Shown here: positions 1,114-17,971 of the stretch, one piece after another
How the letters are laid out: every line of letters begins with the position of its first letter
How positions within the stretch are numbered: the first letter of the stretch is position 1
Source of the DNA: a virus
Reading direction: 5' to 3' (one strand)
DNA: 27,633 nucleotides
Virus record (IMG/VR): IMGVR_UViG_3300031658_000086
Coordinates: 1-27,633 of that record
Notes under the pieces: generated by a model
The model's input: the letters and a program-made list of their open reading frames with translations, nothing else
Told to the model about the DNA's origin: nothing
The model's database searches: none
Translations under genes and position numbers: made by a program

Positions 1114-1728
1114 ATGAACAAGCATAGAGTAGCAGCACTTTTAGCGAATGGCTTGAATCAGTTGGAAGTGGCAACCATAATAGGTGTGTCTCCTGCTGCT
1201 ATCTGCCAAGTGATTAAGAATGACGAGCCATTTAAGCTCCTACTAGCAGATTACCAGACTAAGGCAGAGAAAGAAGACTCTGAGGACATAGCTATTGACG
1301 CTAGGTATGTAAGTGCGGAACACGCTCTTGTTAAATCTGTAATAGCTCAGGCTGATGGTGCAGAATTACGAGACGCTGTAGCTGCTCTAAGAGTTATATC
1401 AGAAAGAAACCTACAAATTAGACGAGGACTAAGTAAGACTACTGTACATGGTGAAGCAGCAACAGGGCAGGTTAACGTTGTTATCAATTTACCTGCACAT
1501 ACTATTAGCACTCTGCAACAACCGGAAGTACACATAAATGGCGAGCAAGAAGTAGTAGCTATCGGTACAGATAGTATAGCCCCTATGCCTTCTAAGAGTG
1601 TATCTGAGTTATTTAAGAGACTGAGAGGAGAAGGACATGGATCAAAAGCTATTAAAGAAAGCGGAAGCCCTACGGAAGCTATTCCGACTACCGAAGCTAT
1701 TAGCAATCTAATATCAATGGGGGTATAA
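1114..1728 (+). CDS. Probable terminase small subunit
   Basis: This 204-residue protein opens with a helix-turn-helix (about residues 5-36; LNQLEVATIIGVSPAAICQ) as expected for DNA-recognising small terminases. A helical middle (about 62-108; ALRVISERNLQIRRG) would suit oligomerisation. The tail has an NVVINLPAH strand followed by EVVAIG and APMPSKSV, an arrangement I associate with small terminases of podophages. It lies two genes before the large terminase and is the first gene of the rightward block. The start ATG has a modest GAGAAG Shine-Dalgarno about 10 nt upstream. The stop overlaps the next start by one base (TAATG). A transcription regulator with an HTH is the main alternative. Confidence 0.65.
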   Translation: MNKHRVAALLANGLNQLEVATIIGVSPAAICQVIKNDEPFKLLLADYQTKAEKEDSEDIAIDARYVSAEHALVKSVIAQADGAELRDAVAALRVISERNLQIRRGLSKTTVHGEAATGQVNVVINLPAHTISTLQQPEVHINGEQEVVAIGTDSIAPMPSKSVSELFKRLRGEGHGSKAIKESGSPTEAIPTTEAISNLISMGV

Positions 1729-2969
1729 TGGCTAAAGAGAGCAGATTCGGAGCTAACCCCTCTGACCCAGATATACTATCAATGCTAGGTGACGCTGTTG
1801 TTGGAGCTGGCAAAGGGATAGCTGCGGATATTACTGATACAGTAGGTCTTATACCTGACGCACATAATGCTGTCCTTAAAAAGATGGATATTGATGTTCC
1901 TGATGAAGTAATACTAGGTGGTAGGAATCTAAGAAAGCTAACTGGGCAACCCGAATACAATACACCAGAGATGGATACTGGTTCTGCTTTAAGCATGCTA
2001 CTCCCTGGAGGTATAGTAAAGAAGGGAGCTCTAGCTATGGGCACATTATATGCAGCACAGCCTGCTAGACTAGCTAAGTTCAAGGAGTTACTCGAAAGGG
2101 GTGCTACAAAGAATGAGGCTCTACTACCCCTTAGTATGATACCTGGGTTAGGCAATGCTCCTCCTTCTTTCTTTGTTCCTGATACAAAGATGGCACTTAA
2201 AGGCAAGGCAGCTGATGTAGTAGATAGAGGATTAGGGAAGAAAAGTGTATCTTCCTTAGGTGATAGCATGATACACCCTGACCTATTCTCACTCAGCCCT
2301 AAGTTATCTACTAAGTTAAAAGAGATTGAACTAGTTGTCCAGAATGTTAATAGAGGACAATTCGAAAGACAGTCTGTTAGATACGGAGACTCTAAAGTAG
2401 GAGGTATGTTCTCACCAGAGGAGAATAGAATAACAGTATTCAATAGGGTATTCGACCCTGATGATAGTTTCTATAAAGGTGATATAAGGTTACGACTTGC
2501 AGATCAAGTAGAAGATAGTGATAACCGCATCAAAGCTAAGAGTACATTACTGCATGAGATACAACATGCAGTACAAAAGAACTTTAGTATGCCTGGTGGA
2601 ACTAGTCCAGAAGAGTGGAAGAGAAGGATAAAGTACGAGCAACTAACTCCAGGACAGCTAGTAGTAAAGAGGAATATAGAACAAGGTGCGTTCAAAGATC
2701 AGTTAGACGAAGGAACTATAACTATAGAGAATCTAATGTACCACTTTACTGCAGGCGAGATACAAGCTAGACATGTGCAGAAGATGTGGGAAGCACTAGC
2801 CAAGCCAGGACACGTTGGACTATATGGTGCAGGAGATCCTCTACTTAATAGATATGATAGAACCCAATTCAACCCTAGGAATATACTGTTCAAAGAAGAA
2901 TACATGACCTTAGACCCTGAAACAGGTAAGACAATACAAGTAGGAAAGCCACCTGAGATGGTAGAATAA
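1728..2969 (+). CDS. Zincin-type metallopeptidase-like protein
   Basis: This 413-residue protein carries an HExxH motif, LLHEIQHAVQ (H276, E277, H280), followed about 64 residues later by GEIQARHVQ, whose Glu (E344) is positioned as a third zinc ligand. The HExxH plus G-E-x-x-A-R pattern is typical of zincin-like domains in phage polyvalent proteins (LPD-type), where the substrate is unknown. The N-terminal half has a Gly/Ala-rich, possibly membrane-associating segment (about residues 20-45 and 85-110) and no recognised domain. There is no signal peptide. It sits between the two terminase subunits. Possible roles are processing of a head protein, virion-carried protease activity after ejection, or a non-catalytic structural role. 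The catalytic motif is clear; the function is not. Confidence 0.7.
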   Translation: MAKESRFGANPSDPDILSMLGDAVVGAGKGIAADITDTVGLIPDAHNAVLKKMDIDVPDEVILGGRNLRKLTGQPEYNTPEMDTGSALSMLLPGGIVKKGALAMGTLYAAQPARLAKFKELLERGATKNEALLPLSMIPGLGNAPPSFFVPDTKMALKGKAADVVDRGLGKKSVSSLGDSMIHPDLFSLSPKLSTKLKEIELVVQNVNRGQFERQSVRYGDSKVGGMFSPEENRITVFNRVFDPDDSFYKGDIRLRLADQVEDSDNRIKAKSTLLHEIQHAVQKNFSMPGGTSPEEWKRRIKYEQLTPGQLVVKRNIEQGAFKDQLDEGTITIENLMYHFTAGEIQARHVQKMWEALAKPGHVGLYGAGDPLLNRYDRTQFNPRNILFKEEYMTLDPETGKTIQVGKPPEMVE

Positions 2970-2972
2970 CCA

Positions 2973-4502
2973 GTGTCTGATCTAGTAGAGAGTGTAGACC
3001 TAGGGGCAGAGATAAAGGAATCTACTTCTAGCCAAGCTGTATCTATACCAGCATCTGTTAGTTATGAAAGAGGATACGTAGATGGTAACTTCTTTGCTGG
3101 CTTATGTATGCCAGATGTGTGTACTGCTCCTTTACCTGATTTCTACATAGCTATCTGGAATCTAATAAAGGACAGAACCCCAGAACAAATAGGGAAGATA
3201 CTACGACTAGCTCTAGGTCTCCCACGAGGTCATGCTAAAACTACCTTCACTAAGATCCTAATAGTGTGGCTTATAGTATACGATAGGATTAGTTTCCCAT
3301 TGATAGTAGCAGCGAATATAGGGCTGGCAGAGTTAATTCTAGCGGATATAGATGATATACTATCCTCACCTAATATTACAGCAGTCTATGGGGACTGGAA
3401 AGGCGGACTTATAATAGATAATGCTGACACTAAGAAGTGTGCTTTTCATGGTAGAAGCGTAGTGTTAGTAGCTAGAGGTTGGTCAGCTGGTATTCGTGGT
3501 CTTAATATTACTAACCAACGCCCTGATATGATCTTCTTAGATGATGCTCAGACAGCAGAGAATGATGAGTCAGTCTCGGATAGAACCAAGCTACTAAAGA
3601 CTCTAGTGGGTACTATATTCAAAGCGATAGCTCCTATGGGGGATCGTCTTATAGTATACCTAGGTAATATGTATTCATCTGAATGTGTTCTATTCCAGTT
3701 GAAGAAGAACAAGCAATGGCTTAGTATGATAACAGGTGCTATTAAAGAAGACAGTAGACCTCTATGGCCTGACCTATTCTCAATAGAAGACTTAATGGAA
3801 TCCTTTGAGCATGATGAGGCACTGGGACTAGCTCATGTATGGTTTGCAGAAGTTATGAATGATCCTAACTCTGTGGCTACTAGCCTACTCCCAAGCCCTC
3901 TTCCAACGTGTCCTTATGAGACTATAGAAGATCCTGATGGAGTGTTCTTAACAATAGATCCTGCAGGGTTTAGGAAGAATAGTGATGATAATGTTATATC
4001 CTTACACTATATATTCGAAGGTAAAGGGTATATAGCAGGGCGCAAGAGAGGAATACTTGACCCTTCTGAGATAGTACAGGAAGCATTTAAGATGGCACTA
4101 GAGCATGGTGCTAGCCTAATAGCTATTGAGGATACAGGGTATCAACAGTCTCTTATGTTCTGGTGTAACCACTTTATGAAGGAGTGGAACATAGATGGAG
4201 TAGAAATAGTAGCTGTCTCTCATCATGGCAGGAGTAAGGAATCTAGAATGAGGCTCTTTATAGCAGAGCTTTATAAGGAAACCTACTATCAGATGGAAAC
4301 AGTTGCTAGAAGCGAGTTCGTATGGCAGGCTACTAAGTATAAGATAGGCAAACCTAAAGGCAACAAGGATGATATAATGGATTGTGATGCCTATGGCTTA
4401 GATGTACGTAATGAATACTGGGGGCTAATAACTAATAATAAAAGAATAGCTAAGGTAATAGATAGTACCGCGAAGGTAATAAGTAATAATTCACCCTTTT
4501 AA
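2973..4502 (+). CDS. Terminase large subunit (packaging ATPase/nuclease)
   Basis: The 509-residue protein has the two-domain layout of large terminases. The N-terminal ATPase has a Walker A-like LPRGHAKTT (83-91) and Walker B MIFLDDAQ (186-193), with a coupling-motif candidate around IVYLGNMYS (227-235). The C-terminal RNase H-like nuclease shows the acidic positions FLTIDPAG (D329), IAIEDTG (E386) and DDIMD (466-470). It would dock on the portal, use ATP to translocate DNA into the prohead and cut concatemers. The start is GTG at 2973, three bases after the preceding stop. No in-frame ATG occurs before residue 46, so GTG is favoured although the Shine-Dalgarno is weak. Portal follows 11 bp downstream. 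Confidence 0.93.
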   Translation: MSDLVESVDLGAEIKESTSSQAVSIPASVSYERGYVDGNFFAGLCMPDVCTAPLPDFYIAIWNLIKDRTPEQIGKILRLALGLPRGHAKTTFTKILIVWLIVYDRISFPLIVAANIGLAELILADIDDILSSPNITAVYGDWKGGLIIDNADTKKCAFHGRSVVLVARGWSAGIRGLNITNQRPDMIFLDDAQTAENDESVSDRTKLLKTLVGTIFKAIAPMGDRLIVYLGNMYSSECVLFQLKKNKQWLSMITGAIKEDSRPLWPDLFSIEDLMESFEHDEALGLAHVWFAEVMNDPNSVATSLLPSPLPTCPYETIEDPDGVFLTIDPAGFRKNSDDNVISLHYIFEGKGYIAGRKRGILDPSEIVQEAFKMALEHGASLIAIEDTGYQQSLMFWCNHFMKEWNIDGVEIVAVSHHGRSKESRMRLFIAELYKETYYQMETVARSEFVWQATKYKIGKPKGNKDDIMDCDAYGLDVRNEYWGLITNNKRIAKVIDSTAKVISNNSPF

Positions 4503-4513
4503 TAGGAATCATA

Positions 4514-6451
4514 ATGGCTAATGAAAACAAAGCAGGCGTGGTACTAATACCTAGTTTACTATCCCAGAAGAGGATAAAGAACTGGTTAGAAGCAGCACTA
4601 ACAGAACATAAGAAATTTAACAATTACCATGACAAGATGGTAGCTATTGATATCGCGTATGCTAGATACCAGACCCTTAAGACGGACATAGATGGTGTAG
4701 TACAGACAAATGCTGGCGGAGTCGATGCAGCTACTACTACTGTTGGTGCTATTAATATGGCTCCTACTACCCCTCCTGTTGTAGTGTCTCAAGTTGATTC
4801 TATGGTAGCTTACCTAGCAGATGTGTTCCTATCGGGTGTCCCCTTGTTCCCTGTAGTATCAAATCCTAGTAACATAAAGGAAGCAGAGGATTTAGAGTCT
4901 ATTCTAGATGATCATGCACACATAGGTGGCTATGTAAGACAGCTACTCTTATTCTTAAAAGATGGAGTTAAGTATAACTTCTCTTGTATTGAAGTACCTT
5001 GGACTAGTATAGATCAGTATACCAGAGCAGATGAGGTGTTAGACCCAGCTGGTAAACCTAAGCTAGAAAAGAAAGCAAACAAATATACTAAGTGTAAGCG
5101 TCTTGATCCATACAATGTTATATGGGATCATAACGTAAACCCAGGTGATATGGCAGCAGAAGGAGATTATGCTGGCTATGTAGAACTCTTATCCAGAACT
5201 AAGGTAAAGAGACGCTTAACTAGAATGGGATTAGATAACGAAGCCTTTAACATTAAGGAAGCTCTAGACTCTAACCCCTCTAACGTATCAGGAGAAGGAT
5301 ATAATAACTTTGTATCAGCTCCTCAGATATCAGATTATATAAATGCTAGAAAGCCTTTAGATGGTATGGATTGGTTTGACTATCTCTCAGACAAAACTGG
5401 TTCTACTAAGAAGGCTGTTAGTGGTGTAGCTAATTATGAATGGGTTACTATATATGCTCGCATAATACCCTCTGACTTCGTGATGACTACTCCTCAGCCT
5501 AACACAGTACAGATATGGAAGTTCACTAGGGTCAATAATGTACTAGTAGAAGCTCGTAGAATCATATCAGCCTTTGATGTATTCCCTATGCTCTTTGGTC
5601 AACCACTAGAAGATGGTATGGGTTTCCAAACACAGTCTGTAGCAGAAGGTGCTATACCTTTCCAAGAAGCTGCTAAGACACTAATTAACATTAAGTTCAA
5701 CTCTCATAGAAGGGCTGTATCAGATCGTGCTTTATACGATTCTTCTATTATAAGCTCAGCTGATGTTAATGCTCCTGTGCCTGCTTCTAAGATCCCAGTT
5801 AAGGTTAACTCCTTAGGGTCTAGAACACTAGCAGATGCTTATCACCAGATACCATTTGATGCTAGGGGTACTGAATCTACCTTACAAGATGCTCTATTAA
5901 TAGCAGGGTTCTCTAAGGATATGGCAGGATTAACTCCAGCTAATAGAGGTCAGCATCAGAAGGGTAATAAGAGTGTAACAGAGTTCGTTACAACTCAGAG
6001 CAATTCAGAAAATATACTACGTATGCCTGCTCTAATACTGGAGTATCAGGTATTCATTCCTTTCAAAGCTATCCTAAAGCATAACCTATTCCAGCATGGG
6101 GAGAATGCTACAGTTGTTTCCCAGAGGGATGCGTCTGTCCGAGTAGTTGATATAGCTAAGTTGAGAGAAAAAGTACTAGCCTTTAGAATAGCTGATGGAT
6201 TTACTCCTAAGAGTAAGCTAGCATCAACAGAAGCTATAACAGCCTTAATGCAACTCATCCTACAATCAGATGCTCTTATACAGTTATACGGGCCGATGGT
6301 ACCTAAGATGATAGCTCACCTAGCACAGCTGCAGGGTATTAAAGGGTTGGAACAATACCTACCCCCGCAGCCAGCAATAGCTCCACCTCAGGAGCAAGCA
6401 CCAGAAGGAGAGCAACCCCCTCCAGAAGGTGAACAACCACCAACTCAATAA
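4514..6451 (+). CDS. Portal protein
   Basis: This 645-residue protein follows the large terminase and precedes scaffold and capsid, the normal place for the portal, a dodecameric ring at the head vertex that DNA passes through. Early residues (about 75-110) include VVVSQVDSMVAYLADVFLSG and the core has LDPYNVIWDHNVNPGDM, both in the style of podophage portals. A middle stretch, GAIPFQEAAKTLINIKFN (about 380-400), leads to long C-terminal helices for the stem and crown. The last ~30 residues are rich in Pro, Gln and Glu and probably disordered. The size is larger than T7 gp8 (536 aa) and smaller than N4-type portals. Shine-Dalgarno AGGAATC precedes the ATG. Confidence 0.88.
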   Translation: MANENKAGVVLIPSLLSQKRIKNWLEAALTEHKKFNNYHDKMVAIDIAYARYQTLKTDIDGVVQTNAGGVDAATTTVGAINMAPTTPPVVVSQVDSMVAYLADVFLSGVPLFPVVSNPSNIKEAEDLESILDDHAHIGGYVRQLLLFLKDGVKYNFSCIEVPWTSIDQYTRADEVLDPAGKPKLEKKANKYTKCKRLDPYNVIWDHNVNPGDMAAEGDYAGYVELLSRTKVKRRLTRMGLDNEAFNIKEALDSNPSNVSGEGYNNFVSAPQISDYINARKPLDGMDWFDYLSDKTGSTKKAVSGVANYEWVTIYARIIPSDFVMTTPQPNTVQIWKFTRVNNVLVEARRIISAFDVFPMLFGQPLEDGMGFQTQSVAEGAIPFQEAAKTLINIKFNSHRRAVSDRALYDSSIISSADVNAPVPASKIPVKVNSLGSRTLADAYHQIPFDARGTESTLQDALLIAGFSKDMAGLTPANRGQHQKGNKSVTEFVTTQSNSENILRMPALILEYQVFIPFKAILKHNLFQHGENATVVSQRDASVRVVDIAKLREKVLAFRIADGFTPKSKLASTEAITALMQLILQSDALIQLYGPMVPKMIAHLAQLQGIKGLEQYLPPQPAIAPPQEQAPEGEQPPPEGEQPPTQ

Positions 6452-7482: not shown

Positions 7483-8679
7483 ATGGCACTATTAAATGGT
7501 ATCTTTAATACCACGGATAATCCACCTGAACTGAATATGCGGAGCTTTGCAGCATCTATTCTCCGCTTGTTCCCATCAGGTTCTGCGCCTATGTTTGCAC
7601 TCTCATCTCAGAGTGGTCGTAGTAAGGCTAAACAGTCTACTCATGGCTATTTCAGCAAAACAATGGCTTTCGTTAAACAAACCCTAGCAGCCACCCACAC
7701 ATCAGGAGCTACAGCTATTGTAGTACCTAGTGTTGTAGGTATGACTGTTAACATGGTATTGCATAATCTTAGGACTCGTGAGAACCTACGCGTTACTGCT
7801 ATTAATACCGGTACTAACACTATTACAGTGACCCGAGCTTTTGGTCGTGTAGCAGCAGCAGCCGGAGCAGTAGGAGATGTATTGGTTCAAGTAGGTACGG
7901 CTTTCGAAGAAGGTTCTGTACGTCCTACCGCACGTGGGTTGAGTACTGTATATATCAGCACCTTCACACAGATCTTCCGTAACGCATGGGGCTTAACAGA
8001 TACTGCTAGAGCTTCTGTCTCAGAACTAGGCTTCTCTAATATTGCTGAGAACCGTAGAGACAATGCTATGTTCCATAGTACGGATGTTGAGTCTGCTATC
8101 ATATGGGGACAGGGTAAGATGGATACTACTGGCACACAGCCACTACATAGTACTCAAGGTGTACGTGATGCTATTGCTCAGTATGCCCCATCTAATATTA
8201 CCACAGCAGGCGGTACTACTACTATGGCTCAGCTAGAGACAGCAATGACTCCTCTGTTCCAGTATAGTACGGACATTGGTAATCCTACTCAACGTGTTGC
8301 GTTCATGGATAATACTGCACTTAAGGTATTTAACCAAATAGGGCGTTTATCAGGTCAGGTGTTCTTGAACAATGAACAGACTGTATTTGGTATGAAGTTC
8401 ACCACGTTCCAGATGTACTTAGGTACTATTACTCTGGTAAGTCATCCACTGTTGAATGGTTTAGGTACTTCTGGCACAGCTATCGTAATGGATATGCCAG
8501 CTCTTAAACTAGCCTACATGGAAGGTAGAGATACTAAAGCTGAGGAATATGGCGAATCTGGCAAGATGGTAGAGCTAGGTACTGATGGAGTAGGTGGTTC
8601 ACTTACTACTGAGTGTGCTGTAGAACTAGTTAACCCAGCAGCTTGTGGTATCATAGAAGGCTTAACAGCTGGAGCTTAA
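7483..8679 (+). CDS. Major capsid protein (DUF5309/SU10-like, HK97 fold)
   Basis: The 398-residue protein has features I associate with the DUF5309 capsid family: an N-terminal NMRSFAASILRLFPSGSAP, then a central block FRNAWGLTDTARASVSELG, NIAENRRDNAMFHSTDVESA and IIWGQGKMD. After these come TGTQPLHSTQGVRDAI and a C-terminal domain with AIVMDMPALKLAYMEGR. An inserted beta-rich stretch (about 65-125) may form a surface or E-loop-like element. It follows the scaffold with a 33-bp gap and an AAGGAATCACA ribosome binding site, which fits high expression. It is followed by a structured non-coding gap rather than directly by the next gene. Confidence 0.9.
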   Translation: MALLNGIFNTTDNPPELNMRSFAASILRLFPSGSAPMFALSSQSGRSKAKQSTHGYFSKTMAFVKQTLAATHTSGATAIVVPSVVGMTVNMVLHNLRTRENLRVTAINTGTNTITVTRAFGRVAAAAGAVGDVLVQVGTAFEEGSVRPTARGLSTVYISTFTQIFRNAWGLTDTARASVSELGFSNIAENRRDNAMFHSTDVESAIIWGQGKMDTTGTQPLHSTQGVRDAIAQYAPSNITTAGGTTTMAQLETAMTPLFQYSTDIGNPTQRVAFMDNTALKVFNQIGRLSGQVFLNNEQTVFGMKFTTFQMYLGTITLVSHPLLNGLGTSGTAIVMDMPALKLAYMEGRDTKAEEYGESGKMVELGTDGVGGSLTTECAVELVNPAACGIIEGLTAGA

Positions 8680-10502: not shown

Positions 10503-11912
10503 ATGACAGTTATAATAGATGGATCAACAGGTATTGTCGGAGCTACATGGACAACAGGGGGTAGACCTTCTAGTCCTGCGGTTGGACAGCGTGGTTTTAA
10601 TACTACCCTTAATGCCTTGGAAGTATATAATGGCACTCAATGGAACTTACTAAGTGAGGGTCAATCAGCAGTAGGCGGAGTTATTACCACAGACGGAACA
10701 TACACTATACATACGTTTTTAAACTCAGGCACTTTCACTCCTAATATAGCAGGTACTGTTGACTACTTAGTAGTTGCAGGTGGAGGTGGCGGTGGGGGAT
10801 ATTGCGGAGCAGGCGGTGGTGCTGGTGGTTTTAGAACAGCTACTAACTTTGCTGTAGCAGCCACAGGACTTACAGTTACTGTTGGCGCGGGCGGTGCAGG
10901 TGGTAATGGTGTAGCAGTCTCAGGTTCACAAGGCACTAATTCTGTTTTCTCTACTATTACATCTGTTGGTGGCGGTTATGGGTCGCATGGTACTAGTGCT
11001 GTGGATGGTGGTGCGGGCGGGTCTGGCGGCGGGGCTACAACGGCTACTACTGCCTCTGGTACGGTTGGTCAAGGAAATTCTGGTGGTGCGGGTACAGTAG
11101 CTTCATCTCAAGGAGGGGGTGGTGGCGGTGGTGCTAGTGCAGCAGGAGGCACTGGTACTGCTGGTGCAGGAGGCACTGGCGGGGCAGGAACAGCTAATAG
11201 CTTCTCTGGTACAGCGATTACTTACGCAGGTGGCGGTGGTGGAGGGAATGGAGGTTCAACGGCTATTGGTGGCGCAGGTGGAGCAGGTGGTGGAGGAACA
11301 GGTACGGGCGCATCTACTGCTGTTAATTCTGGAACAGTTAATACTGGCGGTGGCGGTGGTGGTGCAGGTTATCCTACAACAACGCGCGCTGGTGCTGGTG
11401 GTTCAGGTATAGTAATTATTCGTTATCCTATAATTACTAAAGCCAACCTAATTGGTCAAGGTCCACAGCTAATGATAGTACAACAACAAGAGCCAATGGT
11501 TACGGGTGGTGGTGATGCGGTTGCAGGAGTTAATATAAGAGACTTAAACATTGTTCAGTTCAGTAATCTTGTAGGAGCTAGTTTATCTTCAAAGCAAATA
11601 ACACTAAGCGCAGGAACATATCGCATGAAAGGGTGGGCGGGTTGTTATCATGGAAACAATCATAAAGCCTATGTATATGATGTTACCAACTCAAGGAGGG
11701 TTATAGCAGGTTCAAGTGAACACGCTTATTCTTCCAGCTATGATACGTGTGCTTCCTTTGTGAATGGTGTTATTTCTACTACTGGAACTACAGTCTTTGA
11801 ATTAAGACACCATATAATTTATGCGACAACTAGTGGGCTTGGAACTGCAACGGGTGTAACAACTGCAGGACCAGAAGTTTACGCAGAACTAGAAATTACA
11901 AGGATAGCATAA
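10503..11912 (+). CDS. Glycine-rich tail fibre/adhesin with jelly-roll-like end
   Basis: The 469-residue protein has an N-terminal RPSSPAVGQRGFNTTLNALE module (21-40) related to one in the previous fibre. After TFTPNIAGTVDYLVVAGGGG comes a long glycine-rich region (about 95-300), ending in GSGIVIIRYPI. This layout matches the phage glycine-rich domain family, which can form polyglycine-II lattices as in T4-like gp38 adhesins. The C-terminal part (about 335-469: SKQITLSAGTYRMKGWAG, PEVYAELEITRI) has the look of a TNF/C1q-like jelly roll. It probably binds a surface receptor. The Gly codons (GGT, GGC, GGA) make this DNA locally richer in G than its neighbours. Confidence 0.8.
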   Translation: MTVIIDGSTGIVGATWTTGGRPSSPAVGQRGFNTTLNALEVYNGTQWNLLSEGQSAVGGVITTDGTYTIHTFLNSGTFTPNIAGTVDYLVVAGGGGGGGYCGAGGGAGGFRTATNFAVAATGLTVTVGAGGAGGNGVAVSGSQGTNSVFSTITSVGGGYGSHGTSAVDGGAGGSGGGATTATTASGTVGQGNSGGAGTVASSQGGGGGGGASAAGGTGTAGAGGTGGAGTANSFSGTAITYAGGGGGGNGGSTAIGGAGGAGGGGTGTGASTAVNSGTVNTGGGGGGAGYPTTTRAGAGGSGIVIIRYPIITKANLIGQGPQLMIVQQQEPMVTGGGDAVAGVNIRDLNIVQFSNLVGASLSSKQITLSAGTYRMKGWAGCYHGNNHKAYVYDVTNSRRVIAGSSEHAYSSSYDTCASFVNGVISTTGTTVFELRHHIIYATTSGLGTATGVTTAGPEVYAELEITRIA

Positions 11913-14523: not shown

Positions 14524-15876
14524 ATGCCAACATCGGATCTACATAAGGAAGCCCCTCTAACAGAGATACATAGAGCTCATAACTGGGAGTATGCTAGTTC
14601 CTCTGTTAGAGAAGCTGCTACTGGTTTTGCAGCACTAGATGTCAATAAGCTAGCATTACAGCTAGATGATTACTCTCTATGGCTTCTAACTACCAATAGC
14701 CCAGCAGCATGGCGTAAGATAGCACCAGAAGCCTTATATGATAATAGAGGATTGTATGCAGCTTCTTCTAACTTATTTCCTGCAGCAGGGGGATCTGGAG
14801 TAGCTGGAGCAGTTAAAGCAGATGATGTATGGTATGCCAGTAGTACGGGTACTCTAGGTGGTACATCAGTTAGTGTAGATGATGCTATAAGAGCCTTGAT
14901 AGATGCCCCTCTCCAAGTAGCAACCAGCTGGGAGATCATAGGTAATAATGAGGATAGGCTAGGAAACCAAACTGTTATAAGAGACTCTGCTAATGGAGTG
15001 GTTGGGAAGACTAGTGGAATGATTAATATACTAAATGTAGCTCGTACCTTTAAGAATACATTAGCTAGTTATAGTACAGCTATTCGTGCTTATACCTTAC
15101 CTAACCATGCAGGGGATATCCTAGTAGGTGGTGAGTTCCCAGTAATTGCTTCTGCTACTAGTACTGTATTACTTGCGTCATTAAGTGCCGAAGTAAACAT
15201 AAGCGGTACTACTACTATAACTGGTTTTGGTGCTGCCCCTGTTAATACCTATAGATACGGTATGTTTACTGGTGCTCTAGTCTTAACCCATAATAGTACT
15301 AGCCTAATCCTTCCAGGTGGAAGTAATATAAATGTTAAAGCAGGTGACCGTTATATTGCTATCGCATTAGCAGGTGCTAGTGACTGGAAAGTACTCTCTC
15401 ATAGACCTGTTAATGGAGATGTACCTGCAGGAACTATCATAGACTACGCAGGATCTGCAGTACCTGATGGCTATCTAGCCTGTGATGGGCAGAACATAGC
15501 TAGAGCTGGGGTGTACGCTAACCTATTTTCTTATATAAGTACTACGTATGGAGTGGGAGATGGTTCTAGTACCTTTACCCTACCTGACCTAAGACGTAGA
15601 GTATCAGTAGGAGAGGGCGGTACAGGAACATCAGTACTCGCAAGTGCTTTGGGTAGTTATGGGGGTACAGAGACCCATACATTAATAACCTCTGAGATGC
15701 CAGCTCATACCCATACTAAAGCTACTGGGCAGTCTCATTCTAATGATCCAGAAGCAGGTACAGTAATGACAACGGGTAATGCTTCTAACACGCTCGTATC
15801 AGGATCTACCGGTGGGGGCGCAGCGCATAATAATATGCAGCCTTCTATTGTTGTTCAGAAGTTAATTAGATACTAG
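14524..15876 (+). CDS. Tail fibre with phage tail collar domain
   Basis: The 450-residue protein has an N-terminal region with NKLALQLDDYSLWLL and AAWRKIA (about 40-67), similar to fibre proteins that attach near the baseplate or tail stub. A variable beta-rich middle follows. From about residue 299 comes a tail-collar domain: DVPAGTIIDYAGSAVPDGYL, ACDGQ, YGVGDGSSTFTLPDLRRR. The C-terminus carries the typical MPAHTHT...HNNMQPSIVVQKLIRY ending. Collar-domain proteins are short tail fibres or receptor-binding tips in many phages. AAGGAG precedes the ATG by 6 nt. It closes the fibre module. Confidence 0.88.
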   Translation: MPTSDLHKEAPLTEIHRAHNWEYASSSVREAATGFAALDVNKLALQLDDYSLWLLTTNSPAAWRKIAPEALYDNRGLYAASSNLFPAAGGSGVAGAVKADDVWYASSTGTLGGTSVSVDDAIRALIDAPLQVATSWEIIGNNEDRLGNQTVIRDSANGVVGKTSGMINILNVARTFKNTLASYSTAIRAYTLPNHAGDILVGGEFPVIASATSTVLLASLSAEVNISGTTTITGFGAAPVNTYRYGMFTGALVLTHNSTSLILPGGSNINVKAGDRYIAIALAGASDWKVLSHRPVNGDVPAGTIIDYAGSAVPDGYLACDGQNIARAGVYANLFSYISTTYGVGDGSSTFTLPDLRRRVSVGEGGTGTSVLASALGSYGGTETHTLITSEMPAHTHTKATGQSHSNDPEAGTVMTTGNASNTLVSGSTGGGAAHNNMQPSIVVQKLIRY

Positions 15877-16874: not shown

Positions 16875-17082
16875 ACTAAGTTTCTTAGTATGTGATAGGA
16901 CAGGAGCAGGATCAACCGCTAAGATATGGAGACACATAGCTTTTGGAGTGATCACTTATAAGGTATCAATGATGTCTGATATTACTTATGAGATGCTCCT
17001 AGCCTACGCAACTGTGGTAGCAGGTGTTGAGTTAGGACAACAGCTTATAAAACCAAACAAAGAGGTTAAGAATGATAAATAG
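16846..17082 (+). CDS. Small membrane-associated lysis-cassette protein
   Basis: I place the start at ATG 16846 because GGAAGG (16834-16839) lies 6 nt upstream; ATG 16843 and 16864 are also in frame. The 78-residue product has FHRLSFLVCDRTGAGSTAKI, then two weakly hydrophobic stretches (about 29-43, WRHIAFGVITYK; about 49-67, YEMLLAYATVVAGVELGQQL) and a basic tail. Similar small proteins ('G-x-x-x-x-x-x-W-x-x-I-A' followed by 'Y-x-x-V-x-G-x-E') occur beside endolysin genes in other phages, with no established function. It overlaps the previous gene by 29 bp and the endolysin by 11 bp. Confidence 0.65.
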   Translation: MSYYTTMFHRLSFLVCDRTGAGSTAKIWRHIAFGVITYKVSMMSDITYEMLLAYATVVAGVELGQQLIKPNKEVKNDK

Positions 17083-17491
17083 CAGATCACTTAATGACCT
17101 ACGTCCTGCTGCAAGGGATAAAGCTAGGGAGTTTAAAGCACAGTGTAAAAGAGTATATGGGATAGACATACTTATATACTGCACTTATAGAGATGAAGCT
17201 CAACAGAACTTTCTATATGCTTCTGGCAGGACTAGACCAGGTAGGAAGTTGACTAATGCTAGAGGTGGTAAGAGCTGGCATAATCATAGATGTGCTTGGG
17301 ACTGTGTACCTATGGAGGGTGGTAAGACCATGTGGGGTGACAGAGCTTCTTACAGGAAGATGGGTAAGATAGCCGCTATGCTAGGTATTGTGTGGGCTGG
17401 CAACTGGAGAGCTTTTAAAGAGACTGCTCACTTTCAGTTTACTAATGGACATGATATGCAGCACTTCAGAGACGGAGGAACACTGAGATGA
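17072..17491 (+). CDS. Endolysin, M15-family L-Ala-D-Glu-type peptidase
   Basis: This 139-residue protein has the M15 (VanY/T5-endolysin-like) zinc peptidase signature: SWHNHRCAWD gives ligands H70 and D77, and KETAHFQF gives catalytic E117 and ligand H120. An upstream YRDEAQQNFLYASGRTRPGR matches the substrate-binding arm of the family. It would cut peptide cross-bridges in peptidoglycan during lysis. There is no signal peptide, so it needs a holin. The length matches single-domain members such as T5 Lys (137 aa). It overlaps the upstream small membrane protein by 11 bp and the i-spanin by 4 bp. Confidence 0.9.
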   Translation: MINSRSLNDLRPAARDKAREFKAQCKRVYGIDILIYCTYRDEAQQNFLYASGRTRPGRKLTNARGGKSWHNHRCAWDCVPMEGGKTMWGDRASYRKMGKIAAMLGIVWAGNWRAFKETAHFQFTNGHDMQHFRDGGTLR

Positions 17492-17964
17492 TGGTACAAG
17501 GTATGGCAGTAGGAGCAATAGGAGCTGTTATGGCAGTCCTTACAGTAACATTAGGCTTATGTATCAATGATAACCTTGATGTAAGGAATGACTTTAGCGA
17601 GCTTAAAGCTGCTGTACTGGCTGCTAACAAGCAGAATATGGCAAGGAAACTGGAGGTAGAAGATGCTAGTAGAAGAACACAGGAAGAAAGTGATATACGC
17701 TACAATACTATGCGGGCTAACCTTAGGGGCAGGCTTAATATCATGCACAACGATAGAAACAAGTGGCTCGAAAGACGCTATCCCACAACCGGGAAAAATG
17801 CCGAAGGTCTTCCACCAGTCTGCTTCAACAGACTTGAGTTTAATAGAAGCCAACAGGACTCGGAGAGATCAGCTAGCAACATCGCTAACCGAGGCGAAGA
17901 ATTCAGACTCGACCTTATCCTTGCCCGCGACTGGGCTAACAAACAACGGTGGACAGAAGAATGA
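17488..17964 (+). CDS. Inner-membrane spanin (Rz-like)
   Basis: The 158-residue protein has one N-terminal transmembrane helix (about 6-25; MAVGAIGAVMAVLTVTLGLC) and a long, charged, largely helical periplasmic region (about 33-90 with SELKAAVLAANKQNMARKLE). That is the layout of i-spanins that span the periplasm to an outer-membrane partner and fuse the membranes at the last step of lysis. A second ATG follows at 17491. Its gene contains the o-spanin gene in the +1 frame. The C-terminal ~60 residues are low in hydrophobics and constrained by that overlap. Confidence 0.8.
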   Translation: MMVQGMAVGAIGAVMAVLTVTLGLCINDNLDVRNDFSELKAAVLAANKQNMARKLEVEDASRRTQEESDIRYNTMRANLRGRLNIMHNDRNKWLERRYPTTGKNAEGLPPVCFNRLEFNRSQQDSERSASNIANRGEEFRLDLILARDWANKQRWTEE

Positions 17965-17971
17965 AGACTAG
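17663..17971 (+). CDS. Outer-membrane lipoprotein spanin (Rz1-like), nested
   Basis: This 102-residue protein starts inside the i-spanin gene in the +1 frame with an ideal GGAGG (17652-17656) 6 nt before the ATG. It has a lipoprotein signal: basic EHRKKV, a hydrophobic stretch, and lipobox LISC with Cys28 as the lipidation site. The mature part is Ser/Thr/Pro-rich and short, as expected for o-spanins, with QPGKMPKVFHQ after the cysteine. It extends 7 bp past the i-spanin stop, so it is almost fully embedded. The pairing of a signal-anchored helical protein with an out-of-frame lipoprotein gene is diagnostic of two-component spanins. Confidence 0.82.
   Translation: MLVEEHRKKVIYATILCGLTLGAGLISCTTIETSGSKDAIPQPGKMPKVFHQSASTDLSLIEANRTRRDQLATSLTEAKNSDSTLSLPATGLTNNGGQKNED

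Follow-up and report, generated by a model that had tools for sequence, protein, structure and literature searches.

A divergent free-standing zincin-like protein encoded between the terminase genes of a bacterial virus

The terminase operon and its zincin-like gene

The DNA analyzed here (the window) is a 27,633-nucleotide stretch from a virus of bacteria (IMG/VR record IMGVR_UViG_3300031658_000086, positions 1 to 27,633), in which a gene for a zincin-like protein lies between both genes of the DNA-packaging motor. This gene (1728..2969, + strand) has an ATG start and one stop codon and encodes a solo, metallopeptidase-like protein of 413 amino acids. The terminase small subunit upstream (1114..1728, +) matches PHROG 16503 ‘terminase’ (E 1.5e-16) and also a separate profile that includes Tiera, PaP2 and P5. 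Downstream are the terminase large subunit (TerL; 2973..4502, +; PHROG 38, E 4.3e-55), 57% identical to that of EBPR podovirus 3, the portal protein (4514..6451, +; PHROG 15554, E 2.5e-131) and an SU10-type major capsid protein (7483..8679, +; PF17236, E 3.1e-36). The zincin start codon shares one base with the small-subunit stop codon (TAATG) and the GTG start of the large subunit is 3 bases past the zincin stop codon; the genes form a tight operon. An earlier note, made from the sequence alone, had described a free-standing 413-residue reading frame inside the packaging operon, and the PHROG matches of its two neighbors bear this out. Based on the portal protein, the nearest named phages are EBPR podovirus 3 (52%), Polaromonas phage Tiera (48%), and Pseudomonas phage PaP2 and its kin (39%).

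Upstream of the operon are two adjacent, non-coding 34-nt direct repeats that are 82% alike (716-783) and a 12-nt inverted repeat (589-621). Elsewhere in the window, tail-fibre-like proteins are encoded at 10503-11912 and 14524-15876 (+), with the glycine-rich domain PF21722 and the phage tail collar domain PF07484, and Pfam identifies an M15-type endolysin at 17072-17491 (+). The endolysin is followed by two overlapping reading frames (17488-17964 and 17663-17971, +) that by eye resemble a nested Rz/Rz1 spanin pair; the start of the inner frame resembles a lipobox (LISC), and neither frame has a Pfam match.

The zincin-like protein begins with a Gly-rich region (residues 1-109; 1728..2054, +; GAGKGIAAD...GGRNLRKLTGQP...). 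Residues ~110-164 (2055..2219, +) align with an LPD23 region of relatives, which is degenerate here and keeps Asp152. The zincin domain (residues 171-353; 2238..2786, +) includes an HPDLF motif, strands at 201-207, 224-229 and 234-240, and both motif helices. HEIQH (residues 276-280; 2553..2567, +) holds the predicted zinc ligands H276 and H280 and the predicted general base E277, and GEIQAR (residues 343-348; 2754..2771, +) the predicted third zinc ligand, E344. The intact HExxH and the downstream glutamate in a G-E-x-x-A-R context are thus as the earlier note had read them. Pfam and PHROGs yielded no second domain family in the 413-aa protein, which places it outside the definition of a polyvalent protein (at least two disparate domains).

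Family membership, catalytic residues and predicted fold

The Pfam scan of the window zincin returned only the SprT-like family (PF10263) at 14.2 bits (E 0.04), below the cut-off of 25.6 bits. Neither DUF6782 (PF20573; cut-off 27 bits) nor LPD23 (PF18838) matched at E<=1, peptidase M78 did not match the protein itself, and PHROGs gave no match. A full-length tblastn search against phages and plasmids had no matches, and scans of viral contigs with the protein or its 198-aa core recovered only copies of the same phage. Relatives were therefore gathered via the motif LHEIQHA[IV]Q, a TerL profile and alignment. The motif scan of viral contigs found at least 120 stretches. Based on a profile of 41 domains from the motif-scan matches listed, with the window phage left out, the window zincin scores 64.8 bits, and 200 shuffled versions of the unmasked protein reach at most 3.3 bits. 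Masking both motifs leaves 9.9 bits, a weak margin over the shuffles, contributed by the HPDLF and GGMFSPEENRI region upstream of the motifs. BLASTP against EBPR podovirus 3 gp3 gave E 4e-8 in a single comparison, and the family profile matches IrrE in the PDB (E 3.1e-4, or 0.011 with a 14-row profile).

Among the relatives, LPD23 scores above its cut-off in loci L059 and L013 and below it in EPV3_3 (EBPR podovirus 3 gp3), L070, L131, L155, L157 and L056, with the family consensus TGWxxGxDGKWRxEIxD; DUF6782 is above its cut-off in L155, L056 and L131. Since the relatives carry DUF6782 and LPD23, we conclude that, on sequence grounds, the window zincin belongs, as a divergent solo form, with the LPD23/DUF6782-type zincins of polyvalent proteins, a type familiar from large phage proteins that are injected. 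Its branch is the longest of the domain tree (3.81 versus a median of 1.06), too long for the tree to place the protein.

Across 73 aligned domains, largely recruited by motif, H276, E277, Q279, H280, Q283, Y338 and E344 are invariant, as in smaller alignments of 54 and 14 rows. Because most homologues were recruited by LHEIQHA[IV]Q, the invariance of H276, E277 and H280 is partly by construction; that of E344 and Y338 is less so, with GExxAR additionally required for the 41-row profile. HExxH and GExxAR are also kept in five of five homologues beside the terminase (EPV3_3, L153, L155, L157 and L158), four of which were flagged with the motif filter. Among the reading frames of >=150 aa in this position (21 loci listed), two lack this pair: in L157 a second gene of 505 aa, and in L194 an M15 peptidase-like gene of 158 aa. 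The comparison of H276, E277 and E344 that the earlier note had proposed thus finds them kept, together with H280, and all four predicted catalytic residues are retained despite an overall identity of ~20-25%. HEIQH is not followed by the EGFA motif in this protein, and ~24 inserted residues precede it; given these features and its long branch, its predicted activity could be altered.

A full-length model built from 14 rows was poor (pLDDT 53.6) and was replaced by a model of residues 110-400 built from 73 rows (pLDDT 77.7, pTM 0.80). In this domain model, three strands lead into the HEIQH helix (264-285), and the Glu344 helix (342-358) comes next, which is the zincin order. Ten viral structures match at E<=0.001, six of which bear the name ‘Large polyvalent protein associated domain’, and the matches cited here range from E 6.7e-8 to 6.8e-6. 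The best is a nameless protein of 335 residues, the same length as EPV3_3, which it probably is. Foldseek against the PDB had no match at E<=0.001 (best E 1.1). Fold matches in the PDB are weak (all Z<5). PprI/IrrE heads the list (Z 4.5), followed by the zincin region of the N4 virion RNA polymerase (Z 4.4); most of the matches are zincins, lethal-factor and collagenase-type peptidases among them. Structure prediction, which the earlier note had suggested as a check, therefore gives a zincin core with viral structure matches at E<=6.8e-6. Because the catalytic residues are conserved and the predicted fold is zincin-like, the zincin identity withstands the two points on which that note had staked it.

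These data also bear on whether the protein is a catalytically dead or purely structural fold, retained for loading or scaffolding. The very long branch would suit such a protein, as would the N4 virion RNA polymerase, whose zincin-containing region, the one matched by our model, is needed for encapsidation of a protein that is packaged uncleaved, as stated in Iyer 2017 (PMC5512222). Retention of the four predicted catalytic residues at such low identity argues the other way, and we consider a dead fold very improbable.

Distribution of the gene in the terminase slot

A TerL profile search of viral contigs found 107 relatives, of which 80 were kept. A small-subunit gene lies upstream of TerL in 71 of these 80 loci, and zincin reading frames occupy the slot between the two subunits in six: the window phage twice, L153, L155, L157 and L158 (no small subunit was found upstream in L158, where the contig starts). 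The remaining loci have short slots or small reading frames. PaP2, Tiera and Aeromonas phage P5 have a frame of 48-64 aa in this place. When the genomes of these three phages were searched whole, no member of the zincin family was found, despite their homologous capsid, portal and terminase proteins. L070 and L096 have a TerL that this profile also matches; their zincin gene follows TerL instead. In a tree built from 83 TerL rows, eight of them zincin-bearing, the distribution needs five changes, or four without the seven rows with uncovered slots. Given this patchiness, the zincin gene is, by tree reconstruction, an accessory gene that was gained or lost several times (at least four changes).

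The N-terminal 110 residues, which contain no motif, have only two matches among the 12,334 reading frames of the fetched loci: L153 (E 1.4e-5) and L158 (E 0.011), both of which are zincins directly beside TerL in related phages.

Other genes are found in the slot. In L157 the zincin is followed by the 505-aa second gene (2410-3927, +), for which neither PHROGs (E<=1e-5) nor Pfam (E<=0.1) gave a match, and the L194 gene (3469-3945, +) encodes a 158-aa M15-type peptidase (PF08291, E 1.7e-12). EPV3-type phages have a conserved-looking 59-aa reading frame before the zincin and after the small terminase subunit (EPV3_2, L004:347-526; L155:1065-1244). We found no report of a zincin in this slot in the literature, as judged from listings, which does not prove its absence.

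The earlier note had raised a role in head processing, in which the zincin would be the prohead (capsid-maturation) protease. The gene does sit in the head and packaging operon, and Pfam and PHROGs revealed no other head protease among the window proteins scanned. However, PaP2, Tiera and P5 have homologous capsid, portal and TerL proteins and manage without the gene, most of the 80 TerL loci have no zincin in the slot, and the N-termini of the major capsid proteins are collinear with and without it. The capsid protein of the window begins like those of phages that lack the zincin, with no N-terminal extension to be cleaved. The proposal thus found no support, and a prohead protease is very unlikely. 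The gene probably supplies additional cargo and is not required for head building.

A second potential substrate is the giant ejection-type protein encoded from 23745 onward, which the zincin could process in trans. Such domains have been proposed to autoprocess the polyvalent proteins that contain them (Iyer 2017, PMC5512222). The length of the giant protein does not vary with the zincin gene, however, being 1844 aa in EBPR podovirus 3, which has the gene, and 1845 aa in Tiera and 1849 aa in PaP2, which do not; such processing is improbable for this reason.

Solo zincins, possible role and known systems

The earlier note placed such domains usually within giant polyvalent proteins, which overstates the case, because solo forms are common. 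Among the matches listed for loci L011-L130 there are 18 distinct, complete solo reading frames of <520 aa (26 listed, minus five from other sources, two near-copies and one with a truncated start). TerL or the portal gene is within two genes in at least nine of the 18 (L013, L032, L056, L059, L061, L065, L070, L074 and L096), a raw count without a background rate and a lower bound, because only chosen large neighbors were tested. Among the neighbors tested there was no head or packaging gene for L053, L116, L122 and L129; those tested gave an amidase for L122 and a tail protein for L081. For the mid-size polyvalent members, neighbors of ~700-790 aa, picked by that size, were the portal in six of six cases.

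According to Iyer 2017 (PMC5512222), zincins are the commonest domain of phage polyvalent proteins. Genes for these proteins adjoin those of the virion, packaging and injection are predicted for them, and their zincins have been proposed to act in autoprocessing or to attack host proteins. The same paper states that solo LPDs are often near phage structural genes.

Based on the analogy with polyvalent-protein zincins and on the habit of the gene to adjoin terminase or portal genes, our best guess is that the window zincin is a protease carried in the virion and injected into the host, one of the two roles that the earlier note had raised. We favor, with a probability of about 0.5 for the whole, a divergent solo zincin encoded by an accessory gene that is co-translated with the terminase and repeatedly gained and lost, the product being made late, loaded into the virion and active as a peptidase at entry. 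The analysis establishes the family of the protein, its predicted fold, the intactness of its catalytic residues, its place in the operon and its patchy occurrence; that it is expressed late, loaded into the virion, injected and active as a peptidase on a target is inferred. The protein would be made late, together with the packaging genes, and would enter the head or the ejection complex, for which its N-terminal region may serve. H276, H280 and E344 would bind zinc and E277 would activate water, making the protein a zinc peptidase whose target at entry may be a host protein or a co-injected phage protein.

It is possible, if doubtful, that the protein is instead made late to act inside the infected cell, as an effector or as a factor associated with packaging, on a host or terminase-related protein, and is not carried by the virion. 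The overlap with the small-subunit stop codon implies co-expression with the terminase, no virion-targeting signal has been shown, and, because other optional genes such as the M15-like gene of L194 share the slot, it is not reserved for virion proteins. On the other hand, the polyvalent and portal-adjacent homologues better suit a virion-carried protein (Iyer 2017, PMC5512222).

We also raise, as a rather unlikely generalization, that the junctions between the terminase subunits and between TerL and portal are recurrent cargo docks, where optional peptidases are co-translated with the packaging motor and loaded into the head by proximity. If so, small podoviruses without a giant polyvalent protein would have an injected protease. 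If the window zincin is virion-carried, the recurring adjacency to terminase and portal would be a simple genomic cue for injected phage proteins; if not, it sets a limit on how far virion delivery can be assumed for the family. Giant proteins make the function of these very common phage domains hard to address, whereas solo zincins are small and thus expressible, purifiable and deletable, which offers a practical route.

Among known systems, IrrE/PprI (peptidase M78) is a host DNA-damage regulator, linked to the window zincin family by the weak profile match and the fold match given above, and is not known to carry LPD23. Residues 2124-2337 of the virion-carried N4 virion RNA polymerase gp50 align with the zincin core at the Z-score noted, with the motif HELVH where the window zincin has HEIQH. 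By sequence, membership of the window zincin in the clade of the N4 virion polymerase zincin is not supported (hhalign probability 6.7, not significant).

The slot zincins of IMG/VR loci L153 and L158 lie beside TerL like the window zincin and are homologous to it in the N-terminal region (L153 is 33% identical over 83 residues), but differ in having a canonical EGF motif after HExxH and no insert before it. EBPR podovirus 3 gp3 (EPV3_3; JF412296) is likewise a solo protein encoded directly before the large terminase subunit. Its HEIQHAVQ is identical and the aligned part is 26% identical, although its N-terminal region is of a different type (MEILPSLL).

The polyvalent-protein zincins (PF18838, PF20573), as described in Iyer 2017 (PMC5512222), share with the window zincin HExxH and the second-helix glutamate, the same core order, the HPxLF and GExxAR motifs and a place in phage late regions, and relatives of the window zincin have an LPD23-like stretch upstream. 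Unlike them, the window zincin is a free-standing protein of 413 aa, below Pfam thresholds and encoded between both terminase genes.
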